Below are positions 50,874 to 63,999 of a stretch of DNA of 64,000 bases, in pieces. The DNA is taken from assembly GCA_022710975.1 (NCBI GenBank), contig JAKLGA010000017.1, forward strand, positions 62,001-126,000. The letters are read 5' to 3'. Source of the stretch: Myxococcota bacterium. Its GTDB lineage: Bacteria > Myxococcota > B64-G9. Positions within the stretch are counted from its first letter, which is position 1. The number at the start of each line of letters is the position of its first letter. The position numbers were made by a program, and so were the translations under genes. The notes below the pieces were generated by a model. That model saw only the letters and a list, made by a program, of their open reading frames with translations. It did not search any database and was not told the DNA's origin.

Positions 50874-52193
50874 TCAGAAGATCACGATCTTCTCGCCCTT
50901 GTCCGAGAAGACCTTGACCGAGGTGATGCGCATGACGTTCATGAACACCTTGAGGTACTCCGGATCGAACTTGTGCTTGAGCTCGGTCCACATCAGGGTC
51001 AGGGCGATGTCGGAGGAGTAGGGGTCCCGGTGCGGCCGGCGCGAGGTGAGCGCGTCGTAGCAGTCCGAGATGGCGATGATCTTGGAGAACACGCCGATGT
51101 CGTTGCGCGGCACGATGAAGGACACGTTGCCCTTGAGGTCCTTGACCGGCTTGCCGAACTCGGTCTTGTGCTCGTAGGCGGTGATGATGCGGTGGATGGT
51201 GAGCTTGTTGAGCTCGCGGGTGCGGATGATGCGCTTGACCGAGTAGATGGGCGAGCGCCGCACTTGGCGCATCTCGCCCGGCGCCAGCTTGCCGCGCTTC
51301 ATCAGCAGCTCGTCGTTGACGTCGATCATGCCGATGTCGTGGAACATGGCGGACATGCCGAGATCGCGCGCCTGCTGCTTGCTCAGGCCCAGCTCGAGGC
51401 TGAAGACGATGGATAGCAGCGCCACGTTGACCGAGTGGAAGCACAGGTACTCGTCGTCGCTCTTCAGCGTGGTCATGCCGAGGAAGTGGCTGCGGTGGCC
51501 GGCGCTGATGTCCACCAGGTCCTGGACGAAGCGGCCGGCCTTGCGCAGCGGGATCTGCGGCCCCTGGCCGCGCAGCCCGGCCAGGTAGGCGCGCATGAAG
51601 TAGATGGCCCGGGCGTAGATGGTCAGCGCGTAGCGCTTGCGGTCGACGTTCTTGTCCTGCTGGTCCTCGGACTTGTACTGTTCCTTCAGGATCTCCTGGA
51701 TCTTCTCGAAGCGCCGCAGCTTGAGCGCCGAGAGCTTGCGGCTGGAGACGCCGCGCTCGCCCACCGTCTCGTTGTTCTCGGTGGCGAAGATGAAGATGAA
51801 GTCGCGCAGCTCCGGGATGGTGATGGGCTGCGCCAGGACGAAGCCGCCCACGTTGCGCCGCTCGAACTCGACCAGCAGGTACTTCACGTTCTCCAGCGAG
51901 TTGATGTCGATCTTGACCAGCATGTTGTTCAGGTAGAAGGACTCGCCGGCGCCCTGCAGGTTCAGGGCCTCGTCCATGGCCACGATGGTGTTGATGGTGT
52001 CCTTGAGCTGCTCGAGCGGCTTGGCGAAGATGTCGTTCTCCGGCGCGTACAGCTTGACATTGCGCACCAGCATGTACAGCCCCGAGATCAGGGCGCGCCC
52101 GTGGACCTGCAGCTTCTCCTCGTAGGCGCGCGCCAGGTCCAGGCGCTCGGGCGCCATGTCGAGCTTGTCTTGGATCTTGAGCTTTTCTACCAA
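50874..52193 (-). CDS. HD-GYP-like protein with degenerate GYP motif
   Basis: A 439-residue protein. Residues about 235-400 follow the HD-GYP phosphodiesterase: FHSVNVALLSIVFSLELGLS, then FH285-D286-IGMIDV (metal-binding HD), and IAISDCYDALTSRRPHRDP. The HHExxDGxGYP loop reads AYEHKTEFGKP instead, and HDIGK reads HDIGM, so cyclic-di-GMP hydrolysis is doubtful; it may be a binding or scaffold form. The N-terminal 230 residues (YMLVRNVKLYAPENDIF, FYLNNMLVKI) are a domain often seen before such HD modules in myxobacteria. A TTG at 52193 five bases after GGGGAGAG is the best start; the next ATG is residue 13. Confidence 0.82.
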   Translation of the reverse strand: MVEKLKIQDKLDMAPERLDLARAYEEKLQVHGRALISGLYMLVRNVKLYAPENDIFAKPLEQLKDTINTIVAMDEALNLQGAGESFYLNNMLVKIDINSLENVKYLLVEFERRNVGGFVLAQPITIPELRDFIFIFATENNETVGERGVSSRKLSALKLRRFEKIQEILKEQYKSEDQQDKNVDRKRYALTIYARAIYFMRAYLAGLRGQGPQIPLRKAGRFVQDLVDISAGHRSHFLGMTTLKSDDEYLCFHSVNVALLSIVFSLELGLSKQQARDLGMSAMFHDIGMIDVNDELLMKRGKLAPGEMRQVRRSPIYSVKRIIRTRELNKLTIHRIITAYEHKTEFGKPVKDLKGNVSFIVPRNDIGVFSKIIAISDCYDALTSRRPHRDPYSSDIALTLMWTELKHKFDPEYLKVFMNVMRITSVKVFSDKGEKIVIF

Positions 52194-52214
52194 GGCTTCT
52201 CTCCCCTGGACCGG

Positions 52215-54056
52215 CTAACCCTTGGCCTCGCCGGCCCCCGCGCCGAGCAGCTTGTCTCGCAGCTTGGCGCAGGCGCGCTCCGCGGCCTGGGCCACGTCCT
52301 CCTCCTTGATGCCGGCCTCCAGCTCGGACTTGAGCAGCTTGTAGGCGGCGATGGAGCCGGACAGCGCCAGGCCGTTGACCATCAGGCGCTTGTGCTCGGC
52401 GAGCTTCTTCCTGGAGATCACGCTGGTCGCGCGCAGCTCGCCCACGAAGTACTCCATGGCCTCCTGGGTGTTGGTGCTGGCCAGCGCGGCGAAGAAGGCG
52501 GTCTGCTCGTTGGGCTCCTTCTTGCCGAAGTCCGGGTGCTGCACCATGGCCAGCAGCGTCTTGGTGGCGGTCGACAGATCGAAGTGGGTCAGCATGCGGG
52601 CGGCGGTCACGCGCATCTGCATGTCCCCGTCGCCCAGCGCCTTGAGCACGTAGGGGCGCACGCTGTCGGCGCCGCTGGCCGACAGCGTCTGCAGGGCCTC
52701 GAGGCGGATGGCCAGGTTGGGGTGGTCGAGCAGCTTGGCGACGATCTTCAGCTTGTCGGGCGGGTTGAGCTTGTCGATCAGGTACATCATGTCGCGCACC
52801 AGGTTGGCCTTGGTGCTCTCCAGGCGCCGCACGAACACCTCGATCTGCTCCTTGCCCAGGACGGCCAGCGCGTCGCAGAACATGCGCCGCGCCTCCTGCC
52901 GCTCCATGCCCTCCAGCGCCTGCAGCATGGGCACGATCGACTGCTCCTCGAGCCTGGAGAGGTACAGCAGCACGTTCTGCGGGTCCTTGATCTCGGCCAT
53001 GCCGTCGAGGATCTTGGCCACCTGGGCGATGCGCTCCGCCTCGCCCATGCGCTGGAAGAACTCGCGCTCGATCTGCTGCACCCTGGCCAGGTTGCCCTGG
53101 GGCAGCGACTTGCGCTCCAGGGCGGCGAGCTTCCGCAGCATCTGGTTGATGCCCTGGAAGTCCTCGTGGATGAGGAACGAGTCGAGCAGCTGCACGAACA
53201 GCTCACCCAGCGCCTGGCCGAGGTCCTGATCGAGCTCATCCTCCAGCACCTTGAACAGGATGAGCACCAGCTTCGGCAGCACCCGGTTCTCGTCTTCCTC
53301 CTCGAGCTCCTTCTGCACGCGCTCCTTCAGCTCGTCGGTGGCGGTCATGCCCTTGATGACCAGGCCCTTGGCCTGCTCGACGTCCTCCAGCTCGATGTCC
53401 AGGTCCTCGAGCGAGATGCGGGCGAAGCTCAGCGTGTCCTTGGTCGCCGAGGTGAGCTTCTTGTAGAGGTAGTTGACGATCTTGTCCACCTCGGCCCGGG
53501 CCTGCTCCTCGCTCTCGCCGCCCACCGAGACCGAGTCCACCACGACGTACTCGAGGCACTGGAACTCGCCCTTCCACAGCAGGCTGACCATGTCCTCGTA
53601 CTGGTACTCGCGCGAGCGGATGTTGGTCATCAGGATGAGGATGAAGTTCAGCAGCTCCTCGGCCGGCAGCCCGCGGCGGAACACGAGGATGCGCACGCCG
53701 TCGCGGTAGAACTTGTGGGCCAGGTTCATCTCGGAGGCGTCTTCCTGGTAGACCCACTCGCCGTGCAGCTTGAAGCCGAGCTGCTCGACCCGCAGCGGCA
53801 GGTTCTCGTACTGCTCGAGGAAGCCGGCCAGCAGCTTGTAGGTGCGATCGCAGTACTCGCCGTACTGGCCGGTGTTGTGCCGGTAGAGCGCGATCTGCTT
53901 CAACGACTTCTGCATCTCGTTGAAGACGTCCTTGGCCGCGGAGACCTGGGGTGCGATCTCCTCGTCCTTGAGCTCCTCGTTGACCTTGCCGGGCGGTTGC
54001 ATCTTGGAAGTGCCCGAGATGTATACGTTCTTTGGGTCGACCTTCTTCTGTTCCAT
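52215..54056 (-). CDS. HEAT-repeat protein, partner of the HD-GYP-like protein
   Basis: A 613-residue cytoplasmic protein; ATG at 54056 after GGAGAG. Residues about 20-230 repeat the plan of the HD-GYP partner's N-terminus ([73 protein letters not shown]). Residues about 330-600 are a helical solenoid with HEAT units ([45 protein letters not shown] shortened to its helices). The shared N-terminal domain suggests a pair that forms a complex. Two genes downstream are an ACT protein and a CoA-ligase alpha. No catalytic motif is seen. Confidence 0.8.
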
Positions 54057-54099
54057 GCCGCTCTCCGCGTCGGGCCTGGGGCTCCCGCAAGGCGGGCGC

Positions 54100-54129
54100 A
54101 TTCTACGCCGGGGAGGGGGGACCAGGCAA
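54100..54129 (-). promoter_or_regulatory. promoter of the HEAT/HD-GYP/ACT operon
   Basis: Minus strand: TTGCCT (54129-54124), 18-base spacer, TAGAAT (54105-54100), 5/6 match for the -10. The ATG at 54056 lies 43 bases downstream with GGAGAG. Confidence 0.6.
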
Positions 54130-54206
54130 GCACGGCGGCCAGGGCGGGCGGCGTTCCCGGTCCTGCGGGAAACCATCCGCATTGTCGGGAGGTTGCTTCA
54201 TGGCCC

Positions 54207-57161: not shown

Positions 57162-57707
57162 TCAGAGGGCCTCGAGGGCGCGGGCGTAGACGTCGAGCGT
57201 CGGCCGATCGAAGAGCGCGAACACCACCCGCCGCAGGTGCGCCGGGGCGGGCTCCGCGGCCAGGAAGTCGCGCACGGTGGCCAGGGCGAGCGGCGCGGCC
57301 CGGGCCGCGGGGAAGCCGTACACGCCGGTCGAGATCGAGGGGAAGGCCAGGCTGGCGCAGGCGTGCTCCTCGGCCAGCTCGAGGCTGCGCCGGTAGGCGC
57401 CCACGAGCATCCGGTCCTCGTCCGCCTCGCCGCCGCGCCAGATCGGGCCCACGGCGTGGATGACGTGCCTCACCCCGCGGTCCGCGAGGTCGAAGGCCGG
57501 GGTGAGCACCGCCGAGCCGGTCCGGCAGCCGCCCAGCCCGCGGCAGGCCGCCAGCAGCCTGGGCCCGGCCGCGTGGTGCACCGCCCCGTCCACCCCGCCG
57601 CCGCCGCGCAGCCCGCTGTTCGCGGCGGTGGTGACGGCGTCGACGGCCAGCCGGGTGATGTCCCCTTGCCACAGCTCCAGCGAACCTCGGCCGAAGGAGC
57701 GCTGCAT
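57162..57707 (-). CDS. macro-domain protein (ADP-ribose/O-acetyl-ADP-ribose binding)
   Basis: A 181-residue stand-alone macro domain. [43 protein letters not shown] gives the loop-1 Asn/Gly-rich pocket, [24 protein letters not shown] the core strand and [23 protein letters not shown] the loop-2 SxGxYG motif that distinguishes deacetylases of the MacroD type. The [15 protein letters not shown] start has Thr where most have Ile/Val, a minor change. Strong GGAGG site before the ATG. It is transcribed in the same direction as, and 18 bases after, the barrel-protein gene. Confidence 0.92.
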
Positions 57708-57724: not shown

Positions 57725-58702
57725 TCAGAAGCGGTAGGCGAGATCCAGCAGCACGCTGAAGTGCTGGCGCACCAGCGCCGCGTGCAGGCTGCGACCGAGG
57801 GCGTAATCTCCGTCGGGCGCCTCGCCGTCCACGGTCAGCGGGAGCTGGGCCCCCAGGCCGAGCTCGACGCCCGCCAGGCTGTAGCGCACCCCCAGGCCGA
57901 GGGCCAGGCCCACCGCCTCCAGGGTGTCGAGCGCCACCAGGCCGTTCAGCTCGGCCAGCAGCGCGAGCTCCGGGGTGAGCGACACGGGCACGGCCAGGTC
58001 GTAGAACAGCACCGCGCCCACGCGCCTGCGGGTGCCGTAGATCGCCTCGTCCACGCGGTCCTGCACCAGCACCAGGCAGCCGAAGTCGGCCTGCAGGCTG
58101 ACCCGCCCCAGGTTCTGGCCGATGGCCACCCACGGGGTGACGGTCAGGTTGGTCTTGGGGTTCAGGCCCATGTCGATGAGCGGCCGCTGGGCCAGCAGGT
58201 AGCGCCGGCCGAAGTTGGAGTCGTCCTGGCGGCGCCCGGACTGGACGCCCGCCAGGTCCTTCTCCTCGCCGATGCGCGAGGTGGGGCCGGAGAAGTCCAG
58301 GCCCAGGCTGAGCTGACGCTCGGTCGACGGATCGTGGTACAGGCGCCACAGCAGTCCCAGCTCCGCGTCGCCGCCGCTGAAGCTCACCCCGCCGCGCTCG
58401 GCGAAGCTCAGCCCGAGGGGCCCGCGCACGCGGATGGCCAGGGACTCCACCGGCGCCCAGGAACCCTCCAGGCTGAAGCCCACGGCCGAGGTCAGGGGGC
58501 CGGTGGCGAACTCCGCGCCCAGGCGCACCCGGCTCTGGGGCGCGGCGTGGAGGGCGAAGAGCGGACGCACGAAGGGCCAGGCCGGCTCGCCTGCGGGTTC
58601 CGGGGCCGACTCCTCGGCCGCGCAGGGCAGGGCGCCCAGGCCGAGCAGCAGGCCCGCGATCAGGCACTGCACGGAGAATCGATGCCCTGTGCCAGCGGCC
58701 AT
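57725..58702 (-). CDS. exported beta-barrel-like protein of unknown function
   Basis: A 325-residue protein with signal peptide ([15 protein letters not shown]). The mature part has some 14 amphipathic strands with alternating pattern ([61 protein letters not shown]-like) and ends [11 protein letters not shown], a canonical barrel end with terminal Phe. It resembles the outer-membrane transporter-like barrels, but no family name is justified. The ATG at 58702 gives a signal peptide of normal size; an ATG at 58750 is possible. Confidence 0.68.
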
Positions 58703-58774
58703 GCGCACCCGTCCTAGGAAGTCTGGCTCTGCTGGCAGGTTATCGTGCATCCCGGCCGCGGCGTCAAGCCTGGC

Positions 58775-60325
58775 TCAGCCGGCCTGCAGGAGGGCGACCA
58801 GGATGGCCTCGGCCAGCGGGGCCGGCAGGCGCGGGAGGTCTTCCTTCAGCTTGAGCAGCTCGTTGATCACCGCGTAGCGTTTCTTGCCCATCTTCAGGAC
58901 CGGGCTGATCACCCGCTTCAGCAGCTCACCGACCGGCTCGCCCACGCCCGCAGCCCGCTGGATGTCGAGCGCCAGCTGGCTGCGGTCCGCGGGCTGGAGC
59001 TCCTGCGCCAGGAAGTCGGACACCTTGAGCAGGGCCCGGTGGAGCTCGACGTCGAGGCTGAGCTGCTGCCCGCCGTCCTGCACCACGCCGCGCTGGAGAT
59101 CGACCCGCGTGCCGACCGTGCGGCGCGCTGGCGGAGGCGGGGGCGCGGCCGGCGTCGAGGCCGCGGCCGGCCTGGCCTTGGGCGGCTTGGGCCTGGCCTT
59201 GGGCTTGGGGGCCACATCCGCGCTCGGGCGCACGTCCGGCACGGGCTCGACGTGGGGCCGCTCCTGGATCTCGGGCTGGCCCGGCATGAACCGCGACAGG
59301 TCGCCCAGGCCGGTGTCGGCCACCGACACGGCCTGCGGGACGATGATCTGCGTCCCCTGCGTGGACGGCCGATCCAGCACCGCCACGGTGGGCACGTCCA
59401 TCTTCTGCAGCGCGGCCATCGGCACCGGGCCCGAGCCCTCGCCGCGGCCGTAGTCCGCGGCCATCTTGCGCGCAGCGGGCTTGGCCGCCGGCGGGGGCGC
59501 GCTCAGGGCCGAGAGGTCGAGCAGCGGGATGTCCGGCAAGGCGATCTCCGGCATGGGCGCCAGGACCACGTCGGCCGGGTTGGCGGCCGCGGCCCGGGGC
59601 GCCTCGACGACGGGCGCGGGGGACCGCGTCGGCCGGGGCCGCGCGGGCGGCTCGTCCGGCTCCAGCTCGAAACCTGCCCGGCGGCTCGGGCGCAGCCGCC
59701 TGGAGCGCCGCCCGGCGTCCTCGTCGTCCTCCAGGTCGGGCTCGCGCGCGACGGCCGGCTTGCGCCCGGCCGCCGCCGTGCTGCTGGACCGGCCACGCCC
59801 CTGCTCGATGAGCCGCGCCTCGCCGGTGTCGGGGGACAGCAGGCAGCCGTGCACCGGCACCTGGGGCGGCACGGCCGCGGAGGAGCGCAGCAGCCGGACG
59901 GTGTCGAGCACCCCGGCCGTGGGGCTGGACGGCCCGTTCAGCATGTCCTGGAGCTGCTCGAGCTCGGGCGAGCCCGGCGACAGCCCCGCGGCTTGCACCG
60001 CCTGGCGCACCGCGCCGCGGGCCGGCGGGCAGAGCGGGTCGCCGTCCAGCCCGGCCACCAGCACCTCGCGGCAGCCGTGCATGTGGATGGCCAGGGCCGC
60101 CGCCCGCAGCAGCGCCCGATCCTCGCCGCCCGACCAGACCGCGGGCAGCTGGATGACCACTGCCTCGCCGGGCCGCAGCCCGAAGGCCTGTTCCAGGCCG
60201 GCCACCAGCAGCGGGCTGGACGGAGCCACGAGCAGCAGCGGTCCATCCGCGCTCAGGCTGGGCTTGTCGAAGCCCCCGGAGGCGACGAACTCACGGTTGT
60301 TCTTCAGCAACTCCTCGATCGCCAT
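58775..60325 (-). CDS. protein with an N-terminal, zinc-ligand-less beta-carbonic-anhydrase-like domain
   Basis: A 516-residue protein. Residues 1-115 resemble a beta-carbonic anhydrase: IEELLKNNREFVASG, LLLVAPSSPLLVAGLEQAFGLRPGEAVVIQLPAV, AALAIHMHGCREVLVAGLDGDP. The positions of the usual C-(M/S)DSR (residues 34-39, APSSPL) and the HTGCG (residues 93-97, LDGDP) are replaced, so all zinc ligands are lost and it should not be catalytic. Residues about 175-390 are a long Pro/Ala/acidic linker with short LPDIPLLDLS-type motifs; the last 115 residues are a helical domain (VELHRALLKVSDFLAQEL, KRYAVINELLKLKEDL). It overlaps the upstream TPR lipoprotein gene by 35 bases. A role in the flotillin/NfeD operon is inferred from position only. 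Confidence 0.6.
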   Translation of the reverse strand: MAIEELLKNNREFVASGGFDKPSLSADGPLLLVAPSSPLLVAGLEQAFGLRPGEAVVIQLPAVWSGGEDRALLRAAALAIHMHGCREVLVAGLDGDPLCPPARGAVRQAVQAAGLSPGSPELEQLQDMLNGPSSPTAGVLDTVRLLRSSAAVPPQVPVHGCLLSPDTGEARLIEQGRGRSSSTAAAGRKPAVAREPDLEDDEDAGRRSRRLRPSRRAGFELEPDEPPARPRPTRSPAPVVEAPRAAAANPADVVLAPMPEIALPDIPLLDLSALSAPPPAAKPAARKMAADYGRGEGSGPVPMAALQKMDVPTVAVLDRPSTQGTQIIVPQAVSVADTGLGDLSRFMPGQPEIQERPHVEPVPDVRPSADVAPKPKARPKPPKARPAAASTPAAPPPPPARRTVGTRVDLQRGVVQDGGQQLSLDVELHRALLKVSDFLAQELQPADRSQLALDIQRAAGVGEPVGELLKRVISPVLKMGKKRYAVINELLKLKEDLPRLPAPLAEAILVALLQAG

Positions 60326-60797
60326 CGGAACCCCCGGACGACTGGTTCGGGTTTGGAGCAGGCTCCGCGGGCGCCAGCGCGGCGGCCCACGGTTGGCCGG
60401 TCCCCAGCGTCTGCAGCCGCTCCAGGGCCTCGGCCGCCCGGCGCTCTTGGCCGGCCCGGCGGTAGGCCGCGACCAGGTTGGCCCAGGCCACGGCCGAGCC
60501 GGGCTGCAGCTCGACGGCGCGCTCGAAGGCGCGCACTTCCTCGGCGCGGTCGCCTGCCGCTGTGCCCTCCGCGCGCAGCGCCTGCCCCAGCAGCGTGTGG
60601 GCCGGGGCCCAGGCCGGCCGGAGGCGGGTCGCCTCCCGCGCGTGCTCCGCCGCCTGGCCGGCCTGGCCCGCCATCAGGGCCTTCTGCCCCAGCTCGAACC
60701 GGCCCTCGGCCGTGCGCGGATCGGGTCCGTCGAGGGCCGAGCCGCAGCCGGCCAGCAGGCAGATCAGGCAGACCAGGTGCGGAGCGCGGGTGAGCAT
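60291..60797 (-). CDS. TPR lipoprotein
   Basis: A 168-residue lipoprotein: signal peptide with LLAGC lipobox (Cys near residue 18), then two to three TPR units (AEGRFELGQKALMAGQAGQAAEHAREATRLRPAWAPAHTLLGQAL and AFERAVELQPGSAVAWANLVAAYRRAGQERRAAEALERLQ, partly quoted) and a short Pro/acidic tail. TPR lipoproteins often act as outer-membrane scaffolds. Its last 35 bases overlap the next gene in another frame, an unusually long overlap, so the two should be translationally coupled. It follows the flotillin gene after eight bases. Confidence 0.8.
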   Translation of the reverse strand: MLTRAPHLVCLICLLAGCGSALDGPDPRTAEGRFELGQKALMAGQAGQAAEHAREATRLRPAWAPAHTLLGQALRAEGTAAGDRAEEVRAFERAVELQPGSAVAWANLVAAYRRAGQERRAAEALERLQTLGTGQPWAAALAPAEPAPNPNQSSGGSDGDRGVAEEQP

Positions 60798-60805
60798 GGG
60801 CCTCC

Positions 60806-62263
60806 TCAGGTCGACTTCTTGGCCTCTCCACCCAACCCGGGGATGCGCTTGATCATGTCACCCAGGTTGACCCCGGACAGGGCCTCCACGACCGGGGGGA
60901 GCTGGGCGATGATGTTGGCCACGTCCCCGGTGATCTTGCTCATGCCAGCGTTGTCACCACCGGTGTTGACCACCACGATCTTGTCCATCTTGCTGAGCGG
61001 CTCGGTGATGGCCTTGGCCAGCTCGGGCAGCACGTCGACGAACATCTGGGTGATGGCCGCCTGGTTGTACTCCTTCCAGCTCTCGGCCTTCTTGGCCATG
61101 GCCTCGGCCTCGGCCAGACCCTGGGCGCGGATGACGTCCGCGCGGGCCAGGCCGCGGGCCTTGGTCGCCCCGGCCTCGGCCAGGCCGGTGGCCTGGATGA
61201 CCTCGGCCTCGGCGAAGCCCTGGGCCTTGGCCGCCTCGGCCCGGCCGCGGGCCTCGGCCTCGATCTTGTAGCGCTCGGCGTCGGCCTGCACCTGCACCGC
61301 GTAGCGCCGGGCGTCGGCCGGCTTGTTCACCGTGGCGTCCAGCTCCTTCTCCTTGCGGGCGATCTCCTTCTCCTGGACGATGACCTGCTGCTCCTTCTCG
61401 ATGACCTCGACCTGCACCTCTTCCTTCTTGACCTGCTGGGCCTTCTTGTACTTGCTGAGGTCGTAGGCCAGATCGGCCTCGGCCTTGCGCTCGTTGATGC
61501 CCATCTGGTACTCGGCCAGCTTCACGTTGTAGTTCCGGTTGGCCTCGGCGATCTTGGTCTCTTGCTGGTAGCGCTCGGTCTCTCCGGCCTGCTTGGCCTG
61601 GGCGGACTTGATGACCGCGTCCCGGTCGGCCTCGGCCTGGGCCACCACCGCGTCGCGCTTGACCAGGGCCAGGCGTGGCTTGCCCAGGGCGTCCAGGTAG
61701 CCCTCGTTGTCCTTGATGTCGCGCAGGGTGAAAGAGACGATCTGCAGGCCCATCTTGGCGAAGTCGGTGGCCGAGGTCTCCTGGACCTTCTGGGCGAACA
61801 TGTCGCGGTTCTTGTAGATGTCCTCGACGTCCATCTGGCCGAGGATGGCGCGCAGGTGGCCTTCCAGGGTCTGCTTGGCCACGTTCATGATCTCGTTGCG
61901 ACCGCGCCCGAGGAACTGCTCGGCCGCCGTGCGGATGGCCTGGTCGGTGGCGTGCACCTTGATCTGGGCGATGCCATCCACGATGATGGGCACGCCTTTC
62001 TCGGTGTACACCTCGGGCGTGCGCACGTCGATGGTGATGACCTCCAGGCTGAGGATCTCGGCCTTCTGGATGCCTGGCCACACGAATGTGCCGCCGCCGT
62101 GCACCACCTTGGGTACGCCCGCGGTGAACGCGCCGGAGATGATCATGGCCTCGTTGGGCCCGACCTTCATGTAGCGCTTGACCAGCAGCACGAGCAGCAG
62201 GATCAGGCCCAGCACCGCCAGGCCGACCACCACCAGGATCGAAGTGTCCACGTTCTCCAGCAT
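60806..62263 (-). CDS. flotillin-family membrane microdomain protein
   Basis: A 485-residue flotillin (YuaG/FloT-like). An N-terminal membrane helix (ILVVVGLAVLGLILLLVLLV) is followed by the SPFH/PHB domain (GPNEAMIISGAF, GGTFVWPGIQKAEILSLEVITIDVRTPEVYTEKGVPIIVDG, shown in part) and a long Glu/Ala-rich coiled coil (residues about 210-420) with the flotillin EA repeats (GLAEAGATKARGLARADVIRAQGLAEAEAM). The C-terminus (VNLGDMIKRIPG) is short. It organises membrane microdomains, usually with an NfeD protein, encoded here directly upstream. GGAGGG precedes the ATG at 62263. Confidence 0.93.
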   Translation of the reverse strand: MLENVDTSILVVVGLAVLGLILLLVLLVKRYMKVGPNEAMIISGAFTAGVPKVVHGGGTFVWPGIQKAEILSLEVITIDVRTPEVYTEKGVPIIVDGIAQIKVHATDQAIRTAAEQFLGRGRNEIMNVAKQTLEGHLRAILGQMDVEDIYKNRDMFAQKVQETSATDFAKMGLQIVSFTLRDIKDNEGYLDALGKPRLALVKRDAVVAQAEADRDAVIKSAQAKQAGETERYQQETKIAEANRNYNVKLAEYQMGINERKAEADLAYDLSKYKKAQQVKKEEVQVEVIEKEQQVIVQEKEIARKEKELDATVNKPADARRYAVQVQADAERYKIEAEARGRAEAAKAQGFAEAEVIQATGLAEAGATKARGLARADVIRAQGLAEAEAMAKKAESWKEYNQAAITQMFVDVLPELAKAITEPLSKMDKIVVVNTGGDNAGMSKITGDVANIIAQLPPVVEALSGVNLGDMIKRIPGLGGEAKKST

Positions 62264-62319: not shown

Positions 62320-62937
62320 TCACGCGGGTTTGTCGGACGCGGGCACGTCGCGCAGCTTCTCGTCGGTGTGCTCGCGGACGTAGTACAGGCCGCCCACGAC
62401 CCGGGTGATGGTCACCAGGGCGTGGCGCTTGATGTCCCGCTTGTCCTCGGAGCGGGCCGGACCGTTCATGCGCTGGGCCGGGCCGTCGAAGGAGATCTCG
62501 CCCACGCCGCTGGCGGCGATGGGCTCGGTCACCTCGGCCAGCGCGCCCACCAGGTTCCGCACCCGGGCGACCGCGTTGGACTGGAGGTGCTTGTAGATCT
62601 TCATCAGCAGCCAGCCTACCAGCAGGCCGATGCCCACGCCACAGGCCAGCGCGACCAGCACGCTCAGCACGGGCACCAGGAAGAAGACCTTGAGGCCGAT
62701 CACCCCGCCCACGCCGAAGAAGGACACGAAGGAGGCGATCACCACCGGGCTGAAGAGCGGGAAGTGCACCTCGCCCGCGCCGGTGTCGCCGCCGGCGTTG
62801 TCTCCGTCCGCGTGGCCCGCGTCCGCCCCGGCGTCCGCGCCGGCCTCCACGTGGGACTCGAAGCCGCCCGACAGGATGAAGGAGGCCACCGAGAACACCA
62901 CGCCCACAACCACGCAGGCCAGGTAGAAGGTCAACAT
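62320..62937 (-). CDS. NfeD-like membrane protein
   Basis: A 205-residue protein: one N-terminal helix (LACVVVGVVFSVASFILSG), an Asp/Gly-rich loop of about 35 residues (ADAGADAGHADGDNAGGD), two further helices (VIASFVSFFGVGGVIGLKVFFLVPVLSVLVALACGVGIGLL, partly quoted) and a C-terminal OB-fold (GALAEVTEPIAASGVGEISFDG, KRHALVTITRVVGGLYYVRE), as in short NfeD1b/YuaF-type proteins that pair with flotillin. ATG at 62937 after AGGAAGGA. It precedes flotillin by 56 bases. Confidence 0.86.
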   Translation of the reverse strand: MLTFYLACVVVGVVFSVASFILSGGFESHVEAGADAGADAGHADGDNAGGDTGAGEVHFPLFSPVVIASFVSFFGVGGVIGLKVFFLVPVLSVLVALACGVGIGLLVGWLLMKIYKHLQSNAVARVRNLVGALAEVTEPIAASGVGEISFDGPAQRMNGPARSEDKRDIKRHALVTITRVVGGLYYVREHTDEKLRDVPASDKPA

Positions 62938-62986: not shown

Positions 62987-63709
62987 TCAAGCGCCGATCC
63001 CCTCGCGCACCAGCGCCGCGATGTCCAGCAGGCGTTCGTCCAGGCGGCGCTGGGCGCCGCCGCACAGCGCCAGGCCGACCGCGGTCCAGCAGGCCGCCAG
63101 GCGCGTCCGGGCCTGCGCGGGCCGGCGGACCCCGCCGAGCTCCACGGCCGCCGCCCAGGCCGCGGGGCCGGCCCCGCGGGCCGCCAGGTTGCCCAGCAGC
63201 CGCCCGAGCCCTCGGCGGGCCGCGCCGGCCGCGTCGCCCAGGCCGAGGGCCGCGAGTTCCTCCGTCGCCGTCGCGGCCTGCTCGAGCTCCCGGGCCAGCT
63301 CCTGGGCCGGCATCGGCAGCGGGCCGCGCAGCCCTGCCCGGGCGAAGGCTGCGCCCTCGCGCAGCCGCACGGCGGCCTGGGCCAGGGCGACCGGGTGCAG
63401 CCGCCGGCCGGCCAGGGCCTGCAGGCCGTCGCGGGCCACCTGCCGCACCAGCAGGATGCGGCCGGCCAGCACCATCAGCCCGCCCTCGTCCAGCAGCATG
63501 CGCAGGGCCGAGTCCAGCCGGTCCAGCTCCACGCGCTCCTCGGCGGTGCGCCGGCCCTTGCCTGACAGGGTGAGGTAGCGATCGGTGATCTGGGCGTAGC
63601 GTTCGCACAGCGCAGCCGGCGTCTCCTCGTCGAGCGCCCGCAGCAAGCCCTCGAAGCCCACCCCGGTGAGCTGCGAGATGCGCTCCTCCTGTGCCACCAG
63701 ATCGATCAT
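62987..63709 (-). CDS. unknown helical protein of the PspA/flotillin operon
   Basis: A 240-residue cytoplasmic, Ala/Leu/Arg-rich helical protein without signal or membrane segment. MIDLVAQEERISQLTGVGFEGLLRALDEETPAALCERYAQITDRYLTLSGKGRRTAEERVELDRLDSAL (quoted in part) is the best-defined stretch; the rest is made of helices such as AQELARELEQAATATEELAAL. I do not recognise a family. The ATG at 63709 overlaps the previous stop by four bases (ATGA), and NfeD follows after 49 bases, so it is very likely part of the flotillin/PspA operon. Confidence 0.6.
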   Translation of the reverse strand: MIDLVAQEERISQLTGVGFEGLLRALDEETPAALCERYAQITDRYLTLSGKGRRTAEERVELDRLDSALRMLLDEGGLMVLAGRILLVRQVARDGLQALAGRRLHPVALAQAAVRLREGAAFARAGLRGPLPMPAQELARELEQAATATEELAALGLGDAAGAARRGLGRLLGNLAARGAGPAAWAAAVELGGVRRPAQARTRLAACWTAVGLALCGGAQRRLDERLLDIAALVREGIGA

Positions 63710-63999
63710 CGCGGCTCCGGCTCCGCTCGCTTCAGCCGAGCGAGCTCCTCGTCGATGCTGGCCTCGCGCCGGCGGCGGCGCGCGGCCGCCTCCAGCTTGA
63801 GCGAGCGCTCGTCCAGGTCCGCGCCCCCCAGATCCTCGAGCGCCTCGACGTTGCTCTCCAGTGCGGTCAGCCCGTCGCTGGCCTCGCTCACCACCGGCTC
63901 GTCCTGGCCGCGGTCCACTCGCTGGAGGGCCGACTGCAGCTCGGAACGGGCCTGCAGCATCTGGCGGCGGAAGCGCAGATCGCGCTGCTTGCGGGCCAC
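63706..63999 (-). CDS. PspA/IM30-like coiled-coil protein, probable C-terminal part (runs to right edge)
   Basis: An open frame of 97 codons from a GTG at 63999 to the stop at 63706; the GTG is at the window border and the frame may continue upstream. RQMLQARSELQSALQRV, a short acidic stretch (DGLTALESNVEALEDL) and REASIDEELARLKR are all coiled coil; the (I/V)DxELAxLK ending is the usual C-terminus of PspA/IM30 (ESCRT-III-like) membrane-stress proteins, which often occur with flotillin and NfeD. Treated as a partial gene; the identification is moderate. Confidence 0.45.
   Translation of the reverse strand: MARKQRDLRFRRQMLQARSELQSALQRVDRGQDEPVVSEASDGLTALESNVEALEDLGGADLDERSLKLEAAARRRRREASIDEELARLKRAEPEPR

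Follow-up and report, generated by a model that had tools for sequence, protein, structure and literature searches.

A β-carbonic anhydrase (β-CA) domain that has lost its complete active site forms the N-terminal part of a 516-residue protein encoded in a flotillin operon of a Myxococcota bacterium, and relatives carry the same domain at different stages of this loss. The gene is located at positions 58775-60325 on the minus strand of the window, by which we mean the whole stretch of 64,000 nucleotides analyzed here; the reading frame has the coordinates given in an earlier note made from this sequence. The domain is followed by a linker and a C-terminal helical domain, and this full architecture recurs in 10 further loci; in one more locus, the tail occurs alone. 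Homology to β-CAs, the predicted fold, the disappearance of the active site in stages and repeatedly, and the operon context are, taken jointly, firmly established. The carbonic anhydrase (CA) fold seems to have been kept for something other than chemistry. We lean slightly toward the view that the protein is a cytoplasmic adaptor in a PspA-flotillin membrane-stress complex, a role suggested by operon context and conservation.

A carbonic anhydrase fold without its active site

The β-CA-like domain comprises residues 1-177 (59795..60325, minus strand, as are all features described below unless stated otherwise). A phmmer search of the PDB sequences with the single window sequence yielded only two entries with E values of 10 or less, both of them β-CAs: 6y04 (E = 4.8e-9, residues 30-174) and 1g5c (E = 2.6e-7, residues 2-171). 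The window protein itself gave no Pfam or NCBIfam match. Versions of the same gene from relatives were compared with profile PF00484 (cut-off 25.7 bits; genomes carry G numbers, G000 is the window's own genome, and G000-G008 are the nine genomes of its family). Scores over the cut-off were obtained for G170 (31.2 bits), G002 (30.8 bits), and G008 (29.5 bits), all of which keep more of the active site than the window protein; G171 remained below it with 23.2 bits, and the versions of G007 and G178 showed no match. A model of residues 1-177, calculated from an alignment of six orthologues, reached a pLDDT of 75.8 and a pTM of 0.71. The 50 Foldseek matches listed for this model were all β-CAs or β-CA-like CS2/COS hydrolases (best E = 4.0e-11), and VIA aligned it with 1g5c_B at Z = 18.6 (rmsd 6.0, 158 aligned). 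A likeness to CAs arising by chance is ruled out by phmmer, PF00484 in relatives, Foldseek, and VIA. The earlier note had proposed a β-CA-like domain at residues 1-115 and its comparison with β-CAs by structure prediction. The phmmer matches and the predicted fold, which agrees with that of β-CAs, confirm the domain; its limits were drawn too narrowly, as the CA match extends to residue 171-177 and the domain ends at about residue 177.

Alignments with intact relatives located the former active site. The CxDxR site at residues 35-39 (60209..60223) now reads PSSPL, and the HxxC site at residues 93-96 (60038..60049) reads LDGD. The Cys/His/Cys zinc ligands are replaced by Pro35, Leu93, and Asp96, and the catalytic Asp and Arg of CxDxR by Ser37 and Leu39, so that none of the five active-site residues is kept. 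We take the roles of these positions, zinc ligands and Asp/Arg dyad, to be those of the β-CA family at large. The replacement of the C-DSR and H-GCG sites by APSSPL and LDGDP, as read in the earlier note, thus holds.

The linker extends over residues 178 to 403, approximately, and is rich in Pro, Ala, and charged residues. It contains three motifs: motif 1 at residues 254-276 (59498..59566), with the family consensus PLPELPEIPLPEIPELDLDAL, motif 2 at residues 290-306 (59408..59458; YG...GPV), and motif 3 at residues 329-341 (59303..59341; IQDTGLG in most). Conservation was expressed as the mean majority share among 8 orthologues. Motif 1 is the best conserved stretch of the protein with 0.76, followed by the helical domain (0.60), motif 3 (0.59), motif 2 (0.56), and the CA domain with 0.51, a figure that is lowered by up to one row in eight because it includes G004, which has no CA domain; the linker between the motifs reached 0.10-0.38. 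That the best conserved stretch is a linker motif, not the CA domain, was counted in favor of the adaptor.

The C-terminal helical domain (residues 404-516; 58778..59116) was predicted by AlphaFold2 to consist of three short strands and six helices (pLDDT 93.2, pTM 0.85). The linker and the new helical domain announced in the earlier note are both borne out, the latter at about residues 404-516. Pfam, NCBIfam, PADLOC, and PHROGs contained no family for it; a defense-system or phage protein was considered and rejected, as neither PADLOC nor PHROGs gave a match. Of the 152 matches that Foldseek gave with E values up to 10, none reached 0.001, which is in itself no proof of a new fold. The best VIA rows were RFC clamp-loader subunits and collar domains with Z of about 5, a level deemed uninformative.

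Operon context and occurrence in relatives

The gene is part of a tight operon. On the minus strand, the order is a PspA-like protein, a 240-residue protein, an NfeD/YuaF-like protein, flotillin, a TPR lipoprotein-like protein, the protein described here, and an exported protein, with gaps of -4, 49, 56, 8, -35, and 24 bases along this run. The window contains the C-terminal part of the PspA-like gene (63706..63999), which is whole in the genome beyond the window and has the gene of a full PspA next to it; PF04012 scored 70.6 and 158.5 bits, the latter for the full PspA. Genes for a sigma-54 response regulator and for a TPR histidine kinase lie upstream as well. A sigma-54 promoter before PspA was sought; the best candidates had only 5 of 11 consensus bases, and none is claimed. 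The 240-residue protein (62987..63709) belongs to no known family of Pfam or NCBIfam. Its gene is kept between the PspA-like and NfeD-like genes in the family relatives, and a likely counterpart precedes NfeD in G170 and G178. The membrane protein encoded at 62320..62937 had no family match over the cut-off and adjoins flotillin in relatives as well; it is presumably NfeD/YuaF-like, a name chosen from context. Flotillin (60806..62263; FloT-like) was recognized by its Band_7 and Flot domains, and NF058507 scored 504 bits, under the cut-off of 700. The TPR lipoprotein-like gene (60291..60797) was assigned by Pfam TPR matches and a lipobox seen by eye; it overlaps the start of the CA-like gene by 35 bases. 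The flotillin/NfeD/PspA-like operon described in the earlier note is accordingly supported by family matches, gap counts, and the loci of relatives.

The exported protein (57725..58750; 341 residues) begins 24 bases downstream and has no Pfam match. It keeps its place in several family loci, with 45-51% identity in G002, G005, and G006, and its C-terminal Phe suggests an outer-membrane barrel. Further along the strand, a short gene at about 57162-57674, between the exported protein and a ribonucleotide-reductase-like gene, reads by eye like a macro-domain protein, and an HD-domain gene lies beside a HEAT-repeat gene at 50874-54182. The HD/HEAT pair and the reductase-like gene are kept near the operon in G002, G005, and G006.

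A profile of the helical domain detected the gene in 12 of 195 genomes of the phylum, namely G000 and G002-G008 of the window's family, and G170, G171, G172, and G178; G001, which is 70% complete, gave no match. The gene follows flotillin in 11 of the 12 loci, and in G003 the contig starts just before it. PspA is found near the gene in G000, G002, G005, G006, G007, G008, and G178, a PspA-like gene only in G004, where the contig ends, and none in the stretches fetched around the gene in G170, G171, and G172. Family loci that extend as far as PspA preserve the gene order from there to the CA-like gene. By tblastn, the TPR gene was detected only in G000, G003, and G005. G170 has an intact CA site, and its next gene encodes a DsrE-like protein (L064, 10147-10530, plus strand). 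Two of the observations counted against the adaptor come from these loci: linker and helical domain are kept without the CA domain in G004, where the frame starts about 124 bases after flotillin and the space is thus too short for it, and the gene is missing from the flotillin loci of G011 and G020. Spread beyond the phylum was judged from scans of genome collections only: two strict peptide patterns retrieved, from 84,980 species, only six records, which all belong to the window's family and are classified as Deltaproteobacteria or Myxococcales, and a genome-contig scan with the CA domain alone as query found none.

The dead domain might instead pair with an ordinary β-CA, one of which is indeed encoded in the window's own genome, and act as the regulatory half of the resulting mixed dimer. 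Across the nine family genomes, this was the only clear ordinary β-CA; PF00484 was unmatched in six, and the sole weak match in G002 and G008 is, judged by score, the fused domain itself. A mixed dimer is therefore extremely improbable.

Stepwise loss of the active site

Zinc ligands and dyad are intact in two of the 11 fused CA domains (G170 and G171). G172 keeps the ligands and the Asp and has Ser in place of Arg; G002 and G008 keep Cys/His/Cys and have lost both Asp and Arg. A single ligand is left in G003 (Cys) and in G005 (His), and none in G000, G006, G007, and G178. Altogether, the dyad is incomplete or gone in nine of the 11, the domain still being in frame. The places of C, D, and R differ by species and read PSL, GGD, ACE, DNA, DSE, CCD, or CCE. 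All 13 stand-alone relatives compared keep all five residues. These represent 13 of 17 CA-only genomes, those left out being G056 (66 residues only), G086, G166, and G169. Eight ordinary CAs in the first tree had been picked by the pattern CxDSR/HxxCG, so their intact site is no finding; they are absent from the second tree. G008 was left out of alignment A2, and G004 is absent from A3 and A7, as it has no CA domain, and from A5.

When the active-site columns were left out of the tree, dyad loss required three changes, and so did loss of the complete ligand set; these counts are unsure, like the placement of G178 and G008, because these two are on long branches. Relatives with the same loss, for which the earlier note had suggested a search, thus exist and represent successive stages. 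One group of the tree unites the fused domains with the stand-alone CVDPR enzymes of a family designated f13 (support 96/90, and 91/85 in the second tree). As to a single fusion origin of the 11 fused domains, the best tree needs 2 changes, and the AU test does not reject a single origin (p 0.199).

Enzyme activity with another metal site or another substrate is a very improbable explanation for the retained domain. The versions of G002 and G008 could, judging from their Cys/His/Cys residues, bind zinc, and β-CA-like enzymes with other substrates exist, as the CS2 and COS hydrolases among the fold matches listed demonstrate; the window protein, however, is without all three ligands and both dyad residues.

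Trp64 (60134..60136), identified by column count and alignment, is present in all seven CA domains from the window's family and is absent from the four intact domains compared; together with other family-specific invariant residues, it lies in the stretch after the core strand. Furthermore, 24 residues are invariant across six orthologues that share 36-47% identity with the window CA domain. Family-specific residues such as Trp64 would suit a sensor: an anion or metabolite, be it bicarbonate or another, would occupy the emptied pocket and alter what the tail does, and the module would in this way report the state of the cell to flotillin and PspA. A precedent is CsoSCA, where, according to PMC11086599, a dead β-CA domain binds RuBP close to its defunct site, with a regulatory effect. 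We consider a sensor unlikely, as the residues of the former site vary by species, which is unexpected if one conserved ligand is bound there.

The CA domain may also be a jobless relic, with linker and helical domain alone being of importance. G004 demonstrates that the domain can be lost, the site was lost in three changes on the tree, and the domain is less conserved than the helical domain (0.51 vs. 0.60). A relic is nevertheless rather doubtful, more so than a sensor: 11 of 12 loci retain a complete, in-frame CA domain, the invariant residues persist at the modest identity given above, and Trp64 was gained and fixed in all seven family domains.

Proposed role and comparison with known systems

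The window protein and most of its relatives have lost the chemistry, yet 11 of the 12 loci still encode the domain, all 12 encode the tail, and flotillin is adjacent in all 11 that can be judged; an adaptor is the simplest reading of these counts. A binding role in membrane-stress signaling, as suggested in the earlier note, is likewise a proposal drawn from operon context and conservation. The N-terminal domain, being without catalytic dyad and zinc site, would descend from a working β-CA, and the dead fold would be a structural part. β-CAs form dimers, so the dead domain, most likely dimerizing in the same manner, would join two tails. Two flexible tails may thus be presented, whose motifs and helical domain would dock on flotillin, the NfeD-like protein, and PspA, and the assembly would probably take part in the membrane-stress response. 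In Bacillus subtilis, an SPFH protein is required for bringing PspA to the membrane, as stated in PMC8581546, so that a scaffold is plausible for an operon of this type. A further point against the adaptor is the intact site of G170 and G171, where chemistry may matter.

It is possible, and we propose this tentatively, that a working β-CA was recruited to the flotillin complex, fused to a docking domain, and retired at least three times in separate lineages, the fold being kept as an assembly part and later discarded in one lineage. If this history is true, the Psp/flotillin stress system would have a new partner, and the relatives would form a natural series that leads from enzyme to scaffold. 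The states seen in related bacteria, namely intact, half-lost, fully lost, and deleted, mark a readable path from enzyme to non-enzyme in one conserved gene context, and the protein is a candidate for a new part of the envelope-stress machinery of PspA and flotillin. The question is raised why a CO2 enzyme ever came to the flotillin site.

Among known proteins, the Cab-type β-CA 1g5c and the PF00484 family resemble the window protein in sequence over residues 2-171 and in fold (at the VIA score given above), but the window protein lacks zinc ligands and Asp/Arg dyad and carries a linker and a helical domain. The closest stand-alone enzymes are the f13 CAs of the same phylum (G038, G051, and others), which group with the fused domains in the tree; unlike the window protein, they have an intact active site and no tail. 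No flotillin was present in the stretches fetched at the two f13 loci checked (G038 and G056), and six of seven f13 genomes gave no FloT-family match. CA folds without activity are also found in the CA-related proteins of animals, which belong to the alpha class and have an unrelated fold.

A dead β-CA half is known from CsoSCA, a carboxysomal β-CA with a dead C-terminal half (PMC11086599). As described there, it shares with the window protein the retention of a zinc-less β-CA domain in a larger protein. Its dead half is paired with a live one within a single chain, whereas the window protein has one β-CA-like domain and no live half; moreover, CsoSCA is carboxysomal and the window protein belongs to a membrane-stress operon. 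Operons of PspA, band-7/flotillin, and YuaF have been described (PMC11237479; PMC9239133), and PspA, flotillin, and NfeD/YuaF-like genes stand together here too; the difference is the CA-derived gene, encoding a putative adaptor, added after flotillin. The word "carbonic" does not occur in the main text of PMC11237479, nor "carbonic anhydrase" in PMC9239133, and the literature searched contained no paper linking CA with PspA-flotillin-YuaF operons. Dead CA folds, one dead β-CA half, and PspA-flotillin-YuaF operons are thus already known; new, with respect to the literature searched, is a dead β-CA fold in a PspA/flotillin context with its intermediate states preserved.
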